Below, in pieces: positions 40,016 to 49,457 of a DNA stretch of 64,000 nt. Source of the DNA: an uncultured Ignavibacteriota bacterium (GTDB taxonomy: Bacteria; Bacteroidota; Ignavibacteria; UBA10030; UBA8401); the NCBI GenBank assembly GCA_903861125.1, contig CAIOTF010000015.1, forward strand, positions 124,001-188,000, given 5' to 3'. Both the position numbers and the translations under genes were made by a program. Within the stretch, counting starts at the first letter, position 1. Every line of letters starts with the position of its first letter. The notes beneath the pieces were generated by a model. It was not told where the DNA came from, did not search any database, and was given only the letters and a program-made list of their open reading frames with translations.

Positions 40016-41842
40016 CTACGCATGATGCGGCGTTTTCAGTTCCTTCTTTTCTGCTCCATTTGTTTTCCATACAAGCAGTCCGCGCTGCTGATACGATGTA
40101 TGCAATAAATGATGAGACATCTCACCAAGAGGTTCTTTTAGAAATTCGCTATACAATGCCGCGACGTTCGGATTTTCGTGCGATTTGCGCAACGGTTTAT
40201 TAACATCCTCTGCGTAGATCGACTCAGCTCTTTTCCTTCTGGTCTCCCACGTTGTAGGTATGGGTTGTCCGCCGCCGCCGAGGCATCCGCCGGGGCAGGT
40301 CATCACTTCGATGAATGCATACGGCGATTCCCCTTTTTCGATCTGTTCCATTAGTGTCCGTGCATTCTTTAAAGTATGTGCGGCTGCTATTTTTATTTTC
40401 ATACCATTCAGGTCCACCTCGGCTTCCTTGATACCTTCCATGCCGCGCACCGCGGTGAAATTAATATCAGCAAGAGGATTTCCCGTTATGACTTCGTATG
40501 CTGTGCGCATTGCCGCTTCCATCACGCCGCCGGTGGCACCGAAAATGACAGCTGCGCCGGTCGACGCTCCGAGCGGATTATCGAATTCTTCCACCGGAAG
40601 AGATGAGAAGGTGATGCCTGTCTCCTTGAACATCCGTGCCAGTTCGCGCGTTGTAAGAACATAGTCGACATCATAAAAAGCATCCTCGCTGGACCAGGCT
40701 CGTTTATCCTTCCAATAATCGAATGCACCGCTCATTTCGGGACGGCGCGCTTCATATTTCTTTGCGGTACACGGCATCACCGAAACAACAACGATCTTTC
40801 TCGGGTCGATCTCCATCTTAGCAGCATAGTACGTTTTTGCAACGGCTCCGAACATCTGCTGCGGTGATTTGCATGAGGAAAGATGACCAAGCAGATCCGG
40901 GAAGAAATGTTCCGCAAACTTGATCCAGCCGGGAGAACAGGATGTGATCATCGGAAGTTTTCCATTGTTCTTTATCCGGTTGATCAATTCATATCCTTCT
41001 TCAAGAATCGTAAGGTCGGCAGTGAACTGGGTATCGAAGACTTTCTTGAACCCAAGTTTCCGCAGACCGGCCACCATCTTTCCCGTTACCAGACTTCCCG
41101 GATCCATTCCCATTGCTTCACCGATACCGACACGGATCGCCGGCGCTGTCTGCACGATAACGTATTTATCCGGATTGGACATCTCTTCAAAAACACTGTC
41201 CGTATCGTCGCGTTCAACAATTGCGCCGGTGGGACAGACAAGCGCACATTGACCGCAATACGTGCACGCCACATTGCCGAGGCCTTTTTCCATGTATGTA
41301 GAGATCTTGGATTTGATTCCGCGGCCGGAGAGTCCGATAGCAGAAACTGTCTGCACATTTTGACAAACGGAAATACACCGTCCGCACAAGATACATTTGT
41401 TCGGATCGCGGTGAATGGCGATGGAACTTGTATCGCATTTTTCGATCTTCTTCGTACGGACGTATCGTTCTTCTTTCACTCCCAGATCCGATGCAAGGGA
41501 TTGCAGTTCGCAGTTTTGATTACGAAGGCATGAAAGACAGTCCTTCGGGTGATTCGCAAGCAAAAGTTCGACGCTCGTTTTTCGTGCATCGCGAATACGG
41601 GCGGAGTTTGTAGCGATCTCCATTCCCTCATACACACAGGCTGTGCAGGAGCGAAGGAGCGATTTTGCTCCTTTCACTTCAACAACACAGACCGCACACG
41701 ATGCATTCTTTGAAACATCTTCAAGATAACAGAGCGTCGGAATTCTGATACCTGCCCGCTTGCACGCATCGAGTATCGTTGCGTTGAGCGGGGCTAGATG
41801 ATTGTCTCCATTTATTTTGATATTGACCATTGTCGTATTCAT
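40016..41842 (-). CDS. hydA: [FeFe]-hydrogenase catalytic subunit HydA (trimeric bifurcating type)
   Basis: 608 aa, cytosolic (no signal). Domains in order: [2Fe-2S] (C38, C49, C52, C66), His-ligated [4Fe-4S] (H98, C102, C105, C111), two [4Fe-4S] clusters (C150-C160; C193-C203), then the H-cluster domain. H-cluster motifs: L1 TSCSPGW (300-306), L2 MPCTAKKYE (356-364), L3 EVMTCPGGCLGGGGQP (512-527). L1 has Ser where the textbook motif has a second Cys; I recall the same in HndD-like enzymes, unverified. It lacks the C-terminal [2Fe-2S] domain of Thermotoga HydA. The Shine-Dalgarno (AAGGA) overlaps the hydB stop codon, so translation is coupled. It reversibly makes or oxidises H2. No maturases are in the window. 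Confidence 0.93.
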   Translation of the reverse strand: MNTTMVNIKINGDNHLAPLNATILDACKRAGIRIPTLCYLEDVSKNASCAVCVVEVKGAKSLLRSCTACVYEGMEIATNSARIRDARKTSVELLLANHPKDCLSCLRNQNCELQSLASDLGVKEERYVRTKKIEKCDTSSIAIHRDPNKCILCGRCISVCQNVQTVSAIGLSGRGIKSKISTYMEKGLGNVACTYCGQCALVCPTGAIVERDDTDSVFEEMSNPDKYVIVQTAPAIRVGIGEAMGMDPGSLVTGKMVAGLRKLGFKKVFDTQFTADLTILEEGYELINRIKNNGKLPMITSCSPGWIKFAEHFFPDLLGHLSSCKSPQQMFGAVAKTYYAAKMEIDPRKIVVVSVMPCTAKKYEARRPEMSGAFDYWKDKRAWSSEDAFYDVDYVLTTRELARMFKETGITFSSLPVEEFDNPLGASTGAAVIFGATGGVMEAAMRTAYEVITGNPLADINFTAVRGMEGIKEAEVDLNGMKIKIAAAHTLKNARTLMEQIEKGESPYAFIEVMTCPGGCLGGGGQPIPTTWETRRKRAESIYAEDVNKPLRKSHENPNVAALYSEFLKEPLGEMSHHLLHTSYQQRGLLVWKTNGAEKKELKTPHHA

Positions 41843-41851
41843 AGGGGATCC

Positions 41852-44800
41852 TTACTGATCGTTATATTCATGGCATTTAACATCGCACCGCAGGCAACGG
41901 GTTGCCTCGAGCAATGCTTCTTCGCCGGTATATCCGGCGAGAACTTCCTGAAAACTGGAGATGCGCTCTTTGACGGAAACCTTTTTTGGTTCTATCATTT
42001 TTGCTTCCTCCGGTTCCTGTTCTACCTCATCCTTGTATTTGAATTCTTTGAAGAGTTTGTGGAACCGTTTTTCCTTCATCAGGTCGTTGTCAATCGCTTC
42101 TGCAGCATTACGTGCGATTCCCATTGCTTCCGAAACCGTTGCCGGACCGGTCACTGCATCTCCGCCAGCATACACATTCGGAAGATTTGTCCGGCAGCTC
42201 GGCTGATGGATCTTTACCGTGCCGTTCTTTCGCAGTTCCAAACCTGCATCTTTTCCAGCTTCAAACTCGACTTTCTCGCCGATCGCGAGAATAACCGTAT
42301 CGCATGGAACAATATCTTTCTTTGTTGTTTCAACCGGTTTTTTTCTTCCGGAACTATCGAAACCATCGAACTTCATTCTGATGACTTCAAGTCCCGTCAC
42401 TTTGCCGTTGTGGCCGCCAATGATCCTATGCGGAGCAGACATGAACATGAAGCGAATATTTTCATCCATCGCATCCTTCACCTCATGTTCGTTTGCCGGC
42501 ATCTCATCCCTGTCGCGCCGGTAGACGATTGTAACATCGGAACCGCCACGCAGACATGATCGCGCTGCATCGATAGCAACATTTCCCGCACCAACGATCA
42601 CCACTCTCTTCCCAACACGGAGCCGTCCGCCGATGGCAAGATCTTCAAGGAATTCATATCCCTGCAGAACACCATCGAGCTGATTTCCCTCGATGTGAAG
42701 TTCTATATCTTTCTGCGCACCGACGGCGACGAAGACAGCGTCGTTCTGTTTCTGGATCGTCTTGAATGAAATTTCTTTTCCAATCCGTGTGTTGAAAACG
42801 AATTTCACGCCGAGTTTTTTGAAGAGTTCCAATTCTTTGTTCACAACATCTTTCGGTAGGCGATACGCAGGAATACCGTATTGAAGAATTCCACCAGCGC
42901 GTGCGTGACCATCGTACACTGTTACGGCATGGCCGAGACGAACAAGATAAAAAGCTGCTGTGAGTCCTGCCGGTCCTGCACCGACAATGGCGATCTTCTT
43001 CCCGGTGGTTGATAGTTTTTCTCTTATCAGACGCTGATAGATCTCTTTTTCTTTTCCCATCTTATAGATGGTATCGGCAAGATACCGATGGATCTCTCCC
43101 TGATTGACAGGATCATCCACCATATCCCTGCGGCACCGCATCTGGCAGTGGAAATAACAGATACGACCGACCGTGCCGGGAAGCGGATTGTCTCGAAGTG
43201 TAAGTTCGAACGCTTCTTCGATCCTGCCCTCTTTCAGCAATTGCAGATAGCCGGGAATGTTCATATGCAGAGGACAGCTGTTCTCGCACAATGCCATAAA
43301 AAGATTTTCACAGACGCCGGCCTTGCACCGTTTTTCGATGATATGTTTCTCATACTCGTCGCGGAAATAACGGAGCGTGCTCAACACCGGATTTGAACTT
43401 GTCTGCCCCAATCCGCAGAGCGATGAATCTTTGATTACGTAGGATAATCGCTCCAGTGTGTCCAGGTCTTCCATTGTTCCTTCACCGCGGGTAATTTTAT
43501 TGAGAATGGCAAGAGATTGCGACAGACCTTCGCGGCACGGAGTGCATTTACCGCACGATTCGGCTGCCGTTACTTCTATGAAATATCTCGCGACATCCAC
43601 CATGCAATTATCCTGATCCATCACCACCATGCCGCCGGAACCCATGATGGTTCCGAGTTTCGAAAGCGACTCATAATCCACCGGTGTATTAAAATGTTCC
43701 ACCGGGATGCAGCCGCCGGATGGACCGCCGGTCTGCACGGCACGTATCTTCTTTTTTGTACCCGTTCCTTCTCCCATCTGATAGATGATCGTTTCCAGTA
43801 TTGTTCCGAGCGGCAGTTCGACCAATCCCGTATTTTTTATCTTTCCGACAAGAGAGAACACTTTTGTACCGGTACTGGTCTGCGTACCGAATTTTGCAAA
43901 CGCATCTCCGCCAATAGCGACAATGACGGGGATATTGAACCACGTTTCAACATTATTAATGTTCGTCGGCTTGCCCCATAATCCCTTTTGTGCAGGATAC
44001 GGAGGACGCGGAACCGGCCTGCCGGCTCTTCCTTCGATGGAAGCGATGAGTGCCGTCTCTTCACCGCAGACGAACGCACCGGCTCCTTCCACATATGACA
44101 GATCGAATGTGAATTGCGAGCCGAATATATTCTGACCGAGAAGTCCATGTTCCTTCGCCGCAGCAACTGCCTTTTTAAACCGCTCAACGGCAAGAGGATA
44201 TTCGGCCCGCACGTACATCACACCTTCCGATGTTCCCATCACAAATGCTCCGATCAGCATCCCTTCAATAAGAGCATGCGGATCGCTTTCGATCTCGTTC
44301 CGGTTCATATATGCGCCTGGATCTCCTTCGTCGGCGTTGCAGATGATATATTTTTGGCCGGTCTCAACTTTCTTCATCATTTCCCACTTTATGGCTGTCG
44401 GAAATCCTGCTCCGCCTCGTCCGCGCAGTTTCGATTTTTTTATCTCGTCGAGCACGGTGTCCTGTGTCATCTGCGTCAGTGATTTCATCAATGCACTGTA
44501 ACCGCCGACCGCAATATATTCCTCGATATCTTCCGGATTGATAAGACCCGATTCGCGAAGCACAATTTTTTTCTGTCCCTTAAAGAACGGTATTTCATTC
44601 CACACAGGAACGCTGACGATCCCCGTTCCGAACTCGATCTTAGCGGTAAAAAAATCCCATTTTTCTATCTTACAGAGTGCTTTCTTTAACGGCATCAATC
44701 CCTTTGTAAGACTCTCCACAATATTCTCAGCATCTTTCGTCGTTACTTTGTGCAGGATCACCAGAGGCATTCCCGGAATGTAACAGTTCACGAGTACTTC

Positions 44801-45013
44801 TTCTGCGCAGAATCCAAAACACCCCGTCATAGAAAGCCGTACCGATGCATTCTTCGCTTTAATCGTTTTTTGCAAAGCATCATACACTTCCTTCGCGCCG
44901 TTTCCGATACCGCATGTTCCCATACCGACAGAAATTTTCGGGACATCGGGAAGAAGTTTTTTCAAGCCATTTTGCCGCAGTGTTTCAAGCATTGTTCCAT
45001 CAATGGTTTTCAT
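41852..45013 (-). CDS. hydB: HydB-GltD/NfnB fusion: diaphorase subunit of [FeFe]-hydrogenase fused to FAD-NAD(P)H oxidoreductase
   Basis: 1053 aa; usual HydB is about 600. Residues 1-560 are HydB/NuoF: [2Fe-2S] domain (C34, C65, C69, C77), FMN/NADH domain (RGRGGAGFPTAIKW, 197-210; ICNADEGDPGAYM), SLBB, and [4Fe-4S] site (C487, C490, C493, C533). KRCKAGVC (562-568) is the usual HydB exit. In place of the usual ferredoxin tail comes a complete GltD/NfnB-like module: Cys-rich Fer4_20 (C576, C580, C619, C623, C627), FAD Rossmann fold (VGAGPAGLTAAF, 677-688), second Rossmann (VIVGAGNVAIDAARS) with YRRDRDEMPA (831-840), whose arginines usually bind the NADPH 2'-phosphate, and FAD motif VYAGGDAVTGPATVSEAMG. 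A Cys triplet (C1040, C1043, C1047) ends the protein. GAGG precedes the ATG, and it overlaps hydC by 14 nt. Both NADH and NADPH sites are predicted. Confidence 0.92.
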   Translation of the reverse strand: MKTIDGTMLETLRQNGLKKLLPDVPKISVGMGTCGIGNGAKEVYDALQKTIKAKNASVRLSMTGCFGFCAEEVLVNCYIPGMPLVILHKVTTKDAENIVESLTKGLMPLKKALCKIEKWDFFTAKIEFGTGIVSVPVWNEIPFFKGQKKIVLRESGLINPEDIEEYIAVGGYSALMKSLTQMTQDTVLDEIKKSKLRGRGGAGFPTAIKWEMMKKVETGQKYIICNADEGDPGAYMNRNEIESDPHALIEGMLIGAFVMGTSEGVMYVRAEYPLAVERFKKAVAAAKEHGLLGQNIFGSQFTFDLSYVEGAGAFVCGEETALIASIEGRAGRPVPRPPYPAQKGLWGKPTNINNVETWFNIPVIVAIGGDAFAKFGTQTSTGTKVFSLVGKIKNTGLVELPLGTILETIIYQMGEGTGTKKKIRAVQTGGPSGGCIPVEHFNTPVDYESLSKLGTIMGSGGMVVMDQDNCMVDVARYFIEVTAAESCGKCTPCREGLSQSLAILNKITRGEGTMEDLDTLERLSYVIKDSSLCGLGQTSSNPVLSTLRYFRDEYEKHIIEKRCKAGVCENLFMALCENSCPLHMNIPGYLQLLKEGRIEEAFELTLRDNPLPGTVGRICYFHCQMRCRRDMVDDPVNQGEIHRYLADTIYKMGKEKEIYQRLIREKLSTTGKKIAIVGAGPAGLTAAFYLVRLGHAVTVYDGHARAGGILQYGIPAYRLPKDVVNKELELFKKLGVKFVFNTRIGKEISFKTIQKQNDAVFVAVGAQKDIELHIEGNQLDGVLQGYEFLEDLAIGGRLRVGKRVVIVGAGNVAIDAARSCLRGGSDVTIVYRRDRDEMPANEHEVKDAMDENIRFMFMSAPHRIIGGHNGKVTGLEVIRMKFDGFDSSGRKKPVETTKKDIVPCDTVILAIGEKVEFEAGKDAGLELRKNGTVKIHQPSCRTNLPNVYAGGDAVTGPATVSEAMGIARNAAEAIDNDLMKEKRFHKLFKEFKYKDEVEQEPEEAKMIEPKKVSVKERISSFQEVLAGYTGEEALLEATRCLRCDVKCHEYNDQ

Positions 45014-45530
45014 GGTTTTTCCTCACTTTCGATATGCGCCGGACGAGCATCTGAAGTTTTGATGTTGTCACATTGCTGTAAATAATTCCGTCGATGGCAA
45101 TAACCGGTGCAAGTGCGCACTGACCGAAACACGCAACCGTGGTGACGGTGAACTGCTTGTCCGGTGTGGTAAAGAACTGCTCACCTTCATCCAATTCTTT
45201 TTTGCAGTTCAGGATCAATCCGAGATCGTCCAGCAGCGTGCGCGATCCTTTTGTGTGGCAGGCCGTTCCGCGGCAGACGGTGACGGTATGTTTTCCCTGC
45301 GGTTTAAGATTGAAGAACGAATAGAACGTGACAACGTTATACACTCTGGACAGAGGAACACCGGTCCTGAGTGCGACGTGGTTCAGCGCATCTTCCGATA
45401 GAAATTTATGTTCATTAAGAATCTGGGATTCTTCGAGAATACCCAGGAGTTCGCCGTGTTTTCCTTTATAGCGCGAGATGACTTCGTCTATCTCCAGCAT
45501 TTCCTGCTCTAATGTGCGAGATCCATCCAT
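45000..45530 (-). CDS. hydC: HydC / NuoE-like [2Fe-2S] subunit of the hydrogenase
   Basis: 176 aa. A helical N terminus (LSEDALNHVALRTGVPLSRV) leads a thioredoxin-like [2Fe-2S] domain with ligands C86, C91 (CRGTACHTKGS) and C134, C138 (ACFGQCALAPV). This is the NuoE/HydC fold that passes electrons next to the FMN site of HydB. AAGGAG lies five bases before the ATG. It is first in the operon, and its 3' end overlaps hydB by 14 nt. The promoter should lie in 45531-46143, which also holds two perfect dyads. Confidence 0.93.
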   Translation of the reverse strand: MDGSRTLEQEMLEIDEVISRYKGKHGELLGILEESQILNEHKFLSEDALNHVALRTGVPLSRVYNVVTFYSFFNLKPQGKHTVTVCRGTACHTKGSRTLLDDLGLILNCKKELDEGEQFFTTPDKQFTVTTVACFGQCALAPVIAIDGIIYSNVTTSKLQMLVRRISKVRKNHENH

Positions 45531-46143: not shown

Positions 46144-48546
46144 TTGCCAGCATCCTCTCTTCAGATATTTCAATTTCATCTCACATCAACAACCGCTTCA
46201 AAGGTTTTTGGCTTCCGGAATCTGCATCGGAAAATAAATTGTATAATCTTTCAACAGCTCGGCGTATATTTTTTCTACGTTTTCATACTGACATCAATCC
46301 TTAATGCACAAACCTATACAATCATCGGCCGTGTTATAGATGCAGCTACACTTTTGCCTGTCTCACACTCCACCGTGTTGCTGATTGAAGCCGGAGAGAA
46401 GATGGAAAGCAATGCTGATGGATACTTCCAATTCTCTGGCGGTCCGGGATTACCATATTCTCTTTTGGTTCATCACATTGCCTATGCGGAATGGTCGCAA
46501 AGGTTCACCACAGACTCCCGCCCTGCCGACACTGTCATTGTCGCACTCCAGATGAAAGTATATCAAACGGATGACATCATCATTCTCAGCACACGTATCC
46601 CGTCGGATGGAGGGAAAACACCGTTCCCCGCACTCGCAATGTTTCCGGATGATCTTGTTCGGCACAATAACGCAACAATCTCCGATGCACTCAGGAACGT
46701 GCCGGGAATCTCGCTTGTCCGTGACGGAATGTGGGAAACATCAATTTCTATGCGGGGAATGAGCCGTTCAAACATTATAACCATGGTTGACAATGCAAGG
46801 ATTGAAACTGCCAGTGATATTTCCGGAGCACTATCTCTATTCAATGTGCATGATCTGGAAAGGATAGAGACAATACGTTCTTCCGGTGCCGTTCTTCATG
46901 GCACAGGAGCGCTTGGCGGTATTGTGCATTTATTGACAAAGCGTGCGGCGTTCACAGATGAACAACAAATGCGCGGAGAATTCAGCAGCGAGATCTCCGG
47001 TGTAAACAATTGTGTATCTCAATATCTTGCTGTGGAAGGATCATCGGAACAATACGCCGTACGGTTAAGCGGCGGATACCGAAATGCGGATAATACAACC
47101 ACCCCTTCCGGCGTGATTCCTAATTCCCAATTCACCGATATGAACTTCAACGGATCAATGGAACTGCGTACCACGGAAAGTCAAACGCTGCATCTAACGT
47201 ATCAGCGCTCTCAAGCGGAGAATACGGGAATTCCGGGAGGATCACCTATTGCCGCATTCGCTGCAGCTACCTATAGACTCATGCGACGCGATCTTTTCGG
47301 ACTGGAATACACGATCCCGAATATTACACCGACATTTTCGTCATTACAGGTACGTCTCTCTCAGCAAAACATCATCCGAAATGTTGAGATTATACAATCA
47401 CCAACTCTGACGCTGACCCCACATGCAATTCATTCAACGGCAAGCGCACAGATCGAATCGAAAATCAATATCGCGGAAAATAATTTCCTCGTTTTCGGTG
47501 CTGAAGTATGGCAGCGTACATTAGAGAGCAAACGGGAAAAGATCAACACGGCAAACAATACCATCACCGGCGAACGTCCACTCCCTCACTCACGTTTTCT
47601 CTCAGCCGGATTCTATGGCCAGCATGAATGGCAATTCGCATCGGACAACGGTTCTCTTATTGTCGGCGCACGATATGACCGTATCCGCATCGGCAATGAT
47701 GAAACCGTAAATCCGGAATATATCATCACCAACGGAATTCTCAACACTCTCCCCCAACATCAAACACTACTGTGGAAGAACGGAACGGCAAACAATGAAT
47801 CATGGAGTGTGAATGCAGGGATACAATATTCCATTCATCCCGATCTCGATGTTCTCTTGCTGGCCTCAACGGCGTTTCGTTCCCCATCTCTGGAAGAACG
47901 GTATCAATACCTTACGCTCGGTGACGGCATCCATGTCGGGAATCCTGATCTCTCACCGGAACAATGCATCAGCATTAATCCCGGATTCCGCTGGCATGCG
48001 GACAACGTGAATGTCCGAGGAGACCTGTTCATTAATCAACTGCGGGACCTTGTTTCGGATGTTCCGGGAATCTTTGAAGGAAACGCAGCATTCATTAAAC
48101 GCAATATCAGCAATGCCAGGCTTTATGGATACGAATTGACGGCCGAACATCCGGTAACTAAGCAATCTGCACTGAAATACTCGCTGTCATACGTGCGCGG
48201 AGAAGATACCGGCAACCGCAAAAATCTTCCGCAGATTCCGCCGCTCCATGGCAGCATCGAATTGACTGCTCATTATCAAAATGCCGGATCACTATCGGTC
48301 ACTTCAACATTCAGTGCGGCGCAAACAATGACCGCATCAGGAGAAACGCGGAGTTCCGGTTACAGTGTTTTTGATATTGATGTTGTTACACGTTCATTCA
48401 CGTTTGCGCGTCTCTCTTTTACCGTACGCGGGGGAATTCAGAATATTTTCAATAAAGCATATCACAATCATCTCTCCACACTCCGCGGTTTCGTCACTTC
48501 GGAGCCGGGAAGAAATTTCTTCCTTTCGCTAACGTTAACACTTTGA
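46144..48546 (+). CDS. TonB-dependent outer-membrane receptor
   Basis: About 740-800 aa depending on the start. A signal-like segment (residues ~40-56, VYFFYVFILTSILNAQ) leads a carboxypeptidase-regulatory-like domain (YTIIGRVIDAATLLPVSHST, ~58-140). The plug follows (ATISDALRNVPGISLVRDGM, ISMRGMSRSNIITMVDNARI, GTGALGGIVHLLT), then a ~530-residue barrel ending in an aromatic strand (GRNFFLSLTLTL). It imports a siderophore, cobalamin or oligosaccharide; the substrate is unknown. The track start is a TTG with no ribosome site, and the only in-frame alternative before the signal segment is CTG. Either the start is weak or there is a frame error at the 5' end. Confidence 0.87.
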   Translation: MPASSLQIFQFHLTSTTASKVFGFRNLHRKINCIIFQQLGVYFFYVFILTSILNAQTYTIIGRVIDAATLLPVSHSTVLLIEAGEKMESNADGYFQFSGGPGLPYSLLVHHIAYAEWSQRFTTDSRPADTVIVALQMKVYQTDDIIILSTRIPSDGGKTPFPALAMFPDDLVRHNNATISDALRNVPGISLVRDGMWETSISMRGMSRSNIITMVDNARIETASDISGALSLFNVHDLERIETIRSSGAVLHGTGALGGIVHLLTKRAAFTDEQQMRGEFSSEISGVNNCVSQYLAVEGSSEQYAVRLSGGYRNADNTTTPSGVIPNSQFTDMNFNGSMELRTTESQTLHLTYQRSQAENTGIPGGSPIAAFAAATYRLMRRDLFGLEYTIPNITPTFSSLQVRLSQQNIIRNVEIIQSPTLTLTPHAIHSTASAQIESKINIAENNFLVFGAEVWQRTLESKREKINTANNTITGERPLPHSRFLSAGFYGQHEWQFASDNGSLIVGARYDRIRIGNDETVNPEYIITNGILNTLPQHQTLLWKNGTANNESWSVNAGIQYSIHPDLDVLLLASTAFRSPSLEERYQYLTLGDGIHVGNPDLSPEQCISINPGFRWHADNVNVRGDLFINQLRDLVSDVPGIFEGNAAFIKRNISNARLYGYELTAEHPVTKQSALKYSLSYVRGEDTGNRKNLPQIPPLHGSIELTAHYQNAGSLSVTSTFSAAQTMTASGETRSSGYSVFDIDVVTRSFTFARLSFTVRGGIQNIFNKAYHNHLSTLRGFVTSEPGRNFFLSLTLTL

Positions 48547-48575
48547 AAAGAAGAAAATAATAAAGGATACAACAG

Positions 48576-49457
48576 ATGTTCTGGTTCGTTTTGGCTACTT
48601 GCTCTGCTCTTCTCTCTGCCGCCTCTGCGGTGCTGCAGAAGAAGATACTGTTCCGGCTGAATGCACTGGAATTCTCGTTCTCTGTTTCCCTTGCTGTAGT
48701 TCTACTCTCATCATTCATTCCGTTCACCACCGATGTGGTCTCTCTTCCTTCATCAACACTGTTCATCATTATCGGAAAAAGTATACTCGGTGCTGCGGCA
48801 TTCTTATTGGTGATGCTGTCGCTTCAGCATAACCAGATCAGCAGTGCACTGCCGCTGCTGGGATTAACGCCGGCCGCCGCGGCGATCATTTCCCTACTCG
48901 TTCTTGGTGAAGGTCTTCTCTTTATCGAATGGCTTGGGATCGGTTTCGTTATCGCGGGTGCTTATCTGCTGGAAAGGAAACCTGCCGATACGTTCTTCCG
49001 GCCGATCGGCGGCATTATACGATCGAAAAATTATTACTATATCTACGGAGCAGTCGGATTATTTGCAGTTTCATCCGTACTGGACAAACTGCTCGTAAGC
49101 GGTTTTAAGGTTAGTCCGCCTGTGGTCCTTTTCTATCAGCATATCATTTATGCTCTCCTATATTGTGCCGTTCTTTTGGTCCGCCGCGTTTCCGTAAAAG
49201 AGGTCCTTCGTAAAAGTGCAGGTCAATTTCCGCTCATCGTAACCGTTGCACTGTTGACGATAGCGTACCGCTTTACGCAGTTGGAAGCTACCGTACTTGC
49301 ACCTGTTGCTCTGGTGCTTGCAGTGAAACGAACGTCGATACTATACGCATCATTTTTTGGCGGAAAATTGTTCTCCGAAGAACGACTGGCAACAAAGCTG
49401 CTTGGTGCATTGCTGATTGTTACGGCAGGATTTTGTATTCTGAGGAATGTAGGATAA
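48576..49457 (+). CDS. EamA/DMT-family membrane transporter
   Basis: 293 aa with about ten hydrophobic helices in two halves, each with the EamA repeat. The first half ends LLVLGEGLLFIEWLGIGFVI; the second has FFGGKLFSEERLATKLLGAL. Both copies carry the conserved acidic 'GE/SE' position at the end of helix 4. The drug/metabolite transporter superfamily exports small metabolites or amino acids; the substrate is not predictable. AAGGA lies eight bases before the ATG. The gene starts 29 nt after the receptor stop and is probably co-transcribed. Confidence 0.85.
   Translation: MFWFVLATCSALLSAASAVLQKKILFRLNALEFSFSVSLAVVLLSSFIPFTTDVVSLPSSTLFIIIGKSILGAAAFLLVMLSLQHNQISSALPLLGLTPAAAAIISLLVLGEGLLFIEWLGIGFVIAGAYLLERKPADTFFRPIGGIIRSKNYYYIYGAVGLFAVSSVLDKLLVSGFKVSPPVVLFYQHIIYALLYCAVLLVRRVSVKEVLRKSAGQFPLIVTVALLTIAYRFTQLEATVLAPVALVLAVKRTSILYASFFGGKLFSEERLATKLLGALLIVTAGFCILRNVG

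Follow-up and report, generated by a model that had tools for sequence, protein, structure and literature searches.

Electron-bifurcating HydABC complexes (HydDB group A3; T. maritima, A. woodii and T. kivui), StnABC of S. ovata and the NfnABC complexes of C. saccharolyticus and T. sibiricus are taken to share an unvarying core that includes the ferredoxin arm and to differ only in their third substrate. The Bfu family is defined by a BfuB subunit with IPR011538, IPR019554 and IPR019575 plus a ferredoxin-type domain, IPR017896, and by a NuoE-like BfuC (PMC9304861). T. maritima HydB has a Zn hinge of three Cys and one His, beside which a ferredoxin-like ‘bridge’ domain swings (PMC9499530), and the HydB ferredoxin-like domain with clusters B3 and B4 is the putative ferredoxin site of HydABC and Stn (PMC10482914). 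Here we describe a hydC–hydB–hydA operon from an uncultured Ignavibacteriota bacterium, found in a 64,000-nucleotide stretch (contig CAIOTF010000015.1, positions 124,001 to 188,000; hereafter the window), in which HydB is fused to a GltD/NfnB-like flavoprotein. The HydB–GltD complex is a real, widespread and uncharacterised HydABC variant. On a close to even judgement, it may be a HydABC-type (Bfu) bifurcating complex whose swinging, ferredoxin-reducing HydB arm has been exchanged for an NADP(H)/FAD arm.

The locus has the same three genes as HydABC, with HydA and HydC, a core of flavin mononucleotide (FMN), N3 cluster, thioredoxin-like and SLBB domains, and a presumed Zn hinge; where HydABC carries a C-terminal domain with two [4Fe-4S] clusters (B3/B4), the window HydB carries a 480-residue GltD with two clusters of its own, flavin adenine dinucleotide (FAD) and an NADP(H) site. 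The Bfu core of Stn and Nfn-ABC is likewise joined by a GltD whose Fer4_20 is permuted as it is here. In Stn, however, this GltD belongs to the A-type subunit StnC, where it stands in for the hydrogenase as the input and leaves the ferredoxin arm in place, whereas in the window complex it lies on HydB and replaces the ferredoxin arm while a hydrogenase with an intact H domain is retained. An initial reading of the sequence alone (the sequence-only reading) had cited Stn-type complexes as cases of NuoF–GltD fusion; their GltD is in fact fused to the NuoG-like StnC and not to the NuoF-like subunit, and their proximal-cluster position is Lys rather than the His of the window family. The GltD-type fold, FAD, NADP(H) motif and two [4Fe-4S] clusters are common to NfnL and the window HydB; NfnAB differs in having an NfnA partner (absent here), an unpermuted Fer4_20 in NfnL and Glu as the proximal ligand, and in bifurcating at the FAD of NfnB. 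As in the ‘glutamate synthase-linked’ [FeFe]-hydrogenases of HydDB group A2, a GltD-type partner adjoins HydA (PMC5037454), but the A2 rule asks for GltD without NuoF in the next gene, and the window HydB is NuoF and GltD in one chain.

The HydB–GltD join and the new arm

The hydC and hydB open reading frames overlap by 14 bases, and 9 bases separate hydB from hydA; the positions and the overlapping or abutting arrangement are those already assigned in the sequence-only reading (Table 1). HydC had its best Protein Data Bank (PDB) matches in 9bov_C and T. maritima HydC 7p5h_C. In Pfam searches, HydB contained Complex1_51K (PF01512, residues 191–362), NADH_4Fe-4S (PF10589, 473–557), Fer4_20 (564–652) and Pyr_redox_2 (673–965), and no Fer4-type ferredoxin domain (Bfu clusters B3/B4, IPR017896) was found in it. 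This bears out the earlier description of a HydB chain with a Fer4_20, FAD and NAD(P) module where the ferredoxin tail would be expected, and the YRRDRDEMP segment on which that description drew is present in HydB.

Table 1 Positions of the hydrogenase operon, its domains and motifs in the window, and of two related loci (prefixed by locus)
Feature	Position	Strand	Details
hydA	40016-41842	-	608 aa; [FeFe]-hydrogenase subunit
HydA H domain	~40271-41167	-	TSCSPGW, MPCTAKK, TCPGGCLGGGGQP
hydB-gltD	41852-45013	-	1053 aa; HydB/NuoF core fused to GltD/NfnB-like flavoprotein
HydB core, residues 1-562	43328-45013	-	Thioredoxin-like N domain (C34, C65, C69), FMN/NADH domain, SLBB with GGPSG
HydB core N3-type [4Fe-4S]	within 43328-45013	-	C487, C490, C493, C533
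Presumed Zn hinge	43310-43345; C470 at 43604-43606	-	H557, C563, C568 and C470 (by alignment)
Fer4_20 main part, residues 576-642	43088-43288	-	C576, C580, C619, C623, C627, H642; predicted ligands of two [4Fe-4S]
FAD Rossmann motif (GAGPAG) and YGIPAYRLPK	42848-43003	-	R718 aligns with NfnB R201 / StnC R239 region
NADP(H) Rossmann motif GAGNVA ... YRRDRDEMPA	42494-42607	-	Y831, R832, R833 invariant in 57/57
C-terminal CLRC	41885-41896	-	C1040, C1043; displaced first half of Fer4_20, predicted to complete distal [4Fe-4S]
hydC	45000-45530	-	176 aa; NuoE/HydC-type thioredoxin-like [2Fe-2S]; PF01257 (2Fe-2S_thioredx) E=4.4e-39
FUS2 loci	L115:3806-9261; L117:4093-9518		HydB-GltD with hydC and hydA

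The core of the fused protein resembles that of bifurcating enzymes. Its nearest PDB chains are bifurcating HydB or StnB subunits (9n5u, 7t2r, 9bov, 8oh5, 7q4v), and in a single-chain AlphaFold2 model of HydB–GltD (57 sequences; mean predicted local distance difference test (pLDDT) 86; predicted template modelling score (pTM) 0.73) the core fold matched 9bov_B with a TM(target) of 0.96. The Bfu core features PF01512, PF10589, the SLBB GGPSG and a PF01257 subunit are all there. Residues C470, H557, C563 and C568 fit the Zn hinge of T. maritima HydB and are presumed, by alignment, to be its ligands; they align with HydABC, Stn and Nfn-Bfu chains, are invariant in 57 aligned homologues and are missing from the aligned HoxF and NuoF of the same genome.

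The alignments place the exchange immediately after this hinge. Canonical HydBs of the same phylum read ...HLxxRxCxAxVCKELLTYxIDxxxCxGCGxCxxKC..., the hinge followed by the ferredoxin domain with two [4Fe-4S] clusters, whereas the fused HydB retains the hinge, HIIEKRCKAGVCENL, and continues with FMALCENSCPLHMNIPGY, where the Fer4_20 domain of GltD begins; across the two sets, TYxIxPxxCxGCxxC...CxxC after the hinge in canonical proteins contrasts with CENSCPLHMNIPGY in fused ones. As aligned, the swap point is exact: bifurcating core and hinge are complete, and GltD begins where the mobile two-cluster ferredoxin domain would. Because the hinge is kept and GltD follows directly, the part replaced would be the mobile arm bearing B3/B4.

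The new arm also appears complete. Positions 2–33 of the Fer4_20 profile matched the HydB C-terminus (C1040, C1043), which aligns with NfnL 13–48 and with StnC, and by this alignment the Fer4_20 of HydB–GltD is circularly permuted, with its first CxxC at the extreme C-terminus. The FMN, N3, presumed Zn-hinge, Fer4_20 (seven Cys and one His), FAD and YRR residues were all invariant in the 57 homologues. At the fourth-ligand position of the cluster next to FAD, NfnB has Glu, and in StnC a Lys (K170) takes that place (PMC10482914); here the position is occupied by the invariant His642, in the segment QGEIHRYLAD, which from its position probably ligates the FAD-proximal cluster. The GltD half had its best PDB relatives in StnC, NfnA of Nfn-ABC and NfnL, and its modelled fold matched 5jca_L (TM 0.82). 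Sequence and fold thus support a complete, conserved NAD(P)H/FAD/two-[4Fe-4S] module with NADP(H) placed there, and the comparisons show descent of the arm from the GltD/StnC/NfnB group and of the core from the Bfu core. The genome itself contains no NfnB and no StnC, its Fer4_20 genes being only PreT-, GltD- and PRK12771-like ones and hydB-gltD, and there is no NfnA in the operon.

One further difference lies in the core. At HydB residues 234–246 (window 44276–44314), in the NADH-site loop, the window family has AYMNRNEIESDPH where other bifurcating HydBs have A[FY]MDRSxLEGDPH, which by alignment is a family-specific change near the NADH site.

Distribution and origins of the fusion

We scanned for relatives with one genome per species, obtaining 149, and fetched 80 loci from Ignavibacteria, other Bacteroidota (Paludibacter, Petrimonas, Proteiniphilum, Seramator), Spirochaetota, Omnitrophota and others. 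The HydB–GltD fusion was full length in all 80 (identity 57–98%), with slightly shorter C-termini in five, where the end of the tblastn match is preceded by a stop at a distance of 2–5 codons. The gene order hydC–hydB/gltD–hydA recurred, with hydA directly 3′ in 77 of the 80 loci (the three exceptions are on contigs that stop shortly after hydB) and hydC upstream wherever the contig reaches. An artefact of assembly or annotation, or a frame error, is therefore ruled out for practical purposes: the contigs are independent and include the complete genomes CP006772 and AP018040. Among 297 genomes of the organism’s own phylum, six had the window-type fusion and three a more distant one.

Trees of the HydB core separated two fused families. 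The search for fusions adjoining HydA and HydC, which the sequence-only reading had proposed together with trees as a check, returned many relatives of more than one kind. The window family (FUS1) formed one clade (support 100/99; 100/100 in a second tree). A second family in the same phylum (FUS2; L115 and L117) grouped with A. woodii HydB (100/98, core tree), aligned with Lys and not His at the proximal-cluster position, and came from genomes with HydF and HydG. In trees that include long branches, above all L116, a single origin of FUS1 and L115/L117 was rejected by the core tree (approximately unbiased test, p-AU 0.001); rejection by the GltD tree was weak (p-AU 0.04). Since FUS2 groups with A. 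woodii HydB, apart from FUS1, the swap of the ferredoxin arm, which is ancient, probably arose at least twice, and its occurrence in two tree-separated families argues for repeated selection.

Other arrangements were seen among the loci. At L116:4660-10999 a HydB–GltD of 1062 aa lies beside a short (225 aa) Fe–S protein, like HydA or HoxU, and a 526 aa glutamate-synthase-like flavoprotein, with no hydrogenase domain in the locus. With a flavoprotein there instead of a hydrogenase, the fused core is also reused with another partner, possibly as a bifurcating complex with another third substrate; its long branch leaves its tree position unsure. L118:6356-8539 and L119:5992-8175 encode a canonical, ferredoxin-tailed HydB with a duplicated N-terminal thioredoxin-like domain (727 aa), in the order hydB–hydA–hydC. 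The genome of locus L090 also has an NAD-linked [NiFe]-hydrogenase cluster (L090:1944-8023), made up of HoxEFU with [NiFe] small and large subunits and a protease.

Existing classifications do not set the fusion apart. HydDB assigns [FeFe] group A hydrogenases with NuoF in the next gene to A3 and those with GltD but without NuoF to A2 (PMC5037454), and because it files by NuoF, HydB–GltD fusions disappear among the A3 enzymes; they would fall outside the Bfu family, whose definition requires a ferredoxin-type domain in BfuB (PMC9304861). A paper on Petrimonas mucosa lists an Hnd operon with no remark on a fusion (PMC7768429). As for the novelty that the sequence-only reading had suspected in the pairing with a full hydrogenase, no description of the fusion was found in the literature searched, although one may exist elsewhere, and public genomes carry the gene widely under the A3 label.

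The hydrogenase subunit and its maturation

HydA has the domain set of a hydrogenase (Pfam Fer2_4, NADH-G_4Fe-4S_3, Fer4, Fe_hyd_lg_C and Fe_hyd_SSU), scored 873 bits against the NCBIfam model ‘NADH-dependent [FeFe] hydrogenase, group A6’ (cut-off 765) and had its nearest PDB relatives in HydA of A. woodii and T. kivui. The H-cluster ligands, pocket and SSU domain of [FeFe] group A are present, with no C-terminal [2Fe-2S] extension, and HydA is the only PF02906 (Fe_hyd_lg_C) gene of the 4.19 Mb genome. All 26 pocket positions checked are preserved across 16 clade members, one of which has a gap, in a comparison with 187 of 323 HydA columns invariant overall. H-domain dN/dS was 0.008–0.033, and the HydA H domain is under purifying selection. 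The ratio of H-domain to N-domain distances was alike with and without HydG (~0.74 and 0.77), and HydA as a whole evolves faster relative to HydB in the window clade (1.6 vs 1.1).

The maturases HydE and HydG, and HydF where it was sought, are missing from the window clade. Our searches covered the genome of the window (G000) and G116, G240, G014, G078, G039 and G297–G303, which amount to 12 distinct genomes because G300 and G014 are the same (both hold the 534,225-base contig). The window’s own genome lacks all three: no HydG was found, the HydF search brought up nothing but other GTPases (88 bits at most, below the cut-off of 326), and the best HydE score was 39 bits where 255 is required. 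HydE and HydG were absent from all 12, and HydF from the six in which it was sought (the window’s own, G116, G240, G014, G078 and G039), the last five of which carry window-type fusions and are 99–100% complete. In control genomes the same searches returned HydF and HydG at >450 bits and HydE at >330 bits. No HydG match was found in seven further fused-type genomes of other groups, whose completeness is undetermined. By contrast, HydE and HydG are present in most Bacteroidales and in two sister genomes, L013 and L014 (in L014 in pieces at contig ends), where they may serve another hydrogenase since a second hyd gene set lies near: a hydC-, hydB- and hydA-like set downstream of the fused hydrogenase at L013:10184-16890, and further hydB- and hydC-like genes at L014:6375-13354.

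Two candidate substitutes were rejected. HydE-like matches at C17 of the window’s genome lie among ubiquinone/menaquinone-type genes and reached at most 39 bits, and no conserved neighbour suggested a maturase, the only genes that recur upstream being those for a TonB-dependent receptor (800 aa) and an EamA-type transporter (293 aa). These two run divergently from hydCBA at 46144–49457 in the window and adjoin the operon in ~10 clade loci.

Electron routing and alternatives

The best reading of the complex is that NADP(H), and not ferredoxin, is the partner of its low-potential branch in electron exchange. H2 at the H-cluster would exchange electrons, by way of the HydA clusters and N3, with the FMN of HydB; FMN would serve NAD(H) on one branch, and the other would lead from the HydC [2Fe-2S] through the two Fer4_20 clusters and FAD to NADP(H), for a net NADH + NADPH + 2 H+ <-> 2 H2 + NAD+ + NADP+ without ferredoxin. 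Taking E′ values of −280 mV for NADH, −380 mV for NADPH and −500 mV for ferredoxin (PMC9304861) and E(H2) = −414 − 29.6 log10 p(H2 in bar), we calculated by our own arithmetic that the reaction would balance at ~0.15 kPa H2 with NADH plus NADPH, compared with ~15 kPa for NADH plus ferredoxin and ~3 Pa for NADH alone. A variant with an NADPH arm would suit low-H2 habitats.

Two points weigh against this reading. Ferredoxin, too, might use the Fer4_20 clusters, as it does in NfnAB, and with no HydE, HydF or HydG found in the window clade, H2 activity in the organism itself is uncertain. The first point leads back to the sequence-only reading, in which one complex links H2, NADH, NADPH and ferredoxin. 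That idea finds only partial support, since it is the ferredoxin site that has been exchanged: the NAD(P)H/FAD/Fe–S module on HydB stands, the ferredoxin link is not supported in the form proposed, and the hydrogen link is uncertain in this organism, in which no maturases were found although its H-cluster pocket is intact. Since GltD occupies the place of the ferredoxin domain, ferredoxin would need a new docking site, for example on the Fer4_20 of the GltD arm. That Fer4_20 is complete, with two predicted [4Fe-4S] clusters, and is of the same domain type as in NfnB of the ferredoxin-dependent NfnAB; the genome also has POR-family genes, which would make reduced ferredoxin, and RnfC was not found there. 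Yet B3/B4, the domain at which ferredoxin is presumed to act in HydABC and Stn, has been lost, and the permuted Fer4_20, tied to the hinge, resembles that of StnC, whose clusters only wire FAD to the core. We regard a four-carrier enzyme as unlikely, and exchange with NADP(H) in place of ferredoxin as the likelier course.

The missing maturases invite a different account, in which HydA of this clade lacks the [2Fe] subcluster, the H domain is structural and the complex is an NADH/NADPH transhydrogenase, perhaps with ferredoxin. The absences described above, six of the 12 genomes being 99–100% complete, speak for it, as does StnC, which retains a dead FdhF domain and so offers a described case of an inactive domain. 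The unchanged pocket, the low H-domain dN/dS, the like distance ratio with and without HydG and the shared architecture of homologues in maturase-bearing genomes speak against it, and we judge it improbable, about as much so as ferredoxin docking on the arm. Giardia and Entamoeba are eukaryotes that have [FeFe]-hydrogenase but are not known to have HydEFG. That the window clade’s [FeFe]-hydrogenase works without HydE, HydF and HydG, by another route to the H-cluster, while confurcating NADH with NADPH and not ferredoxin, is a minority possibility to which we would give some credence. Still less probable, in our view, is a simple H2:NAD(P) hydrogenase without bifurcation, for which the GltD arm would be just another port for NADP(H). 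In its favour, the fusion lacks clusters B3/B4, which are considered essential for bifurcation, and dimeric or trimeric NADH-only [FeFe]-hydrogenases are known (PMC7311640). Against it, the presumed ligands of the Zn hinge are kept, and in our data set these tell bifurcating from non-bifurcating NuoF-like subunits; the GGPSG plus A..M signature of bifurcating beta-subunits is kept as well, though HoxF has that signature too.

If the exchange of a ferredoxin arm for an NADP(H) arm is borne out, H2 would be coupled directly to NADPH, and the family would offer a natural test of the HydABC bifurcation model, in which the mobile arm decides the destination of the low-potential electron. The absence of HydE, HydF and HydG beside an intact HydA reopens the question of another bacterial route to the H-cluster. 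In common fermenters, Petrimonas and Paludibacter among them, the A3 rule of HydDB and the domain rules of Bfu conceal enzymes that probably differ in function, and the window family alters, apparently more than once, the arm that was supposed to be constant.

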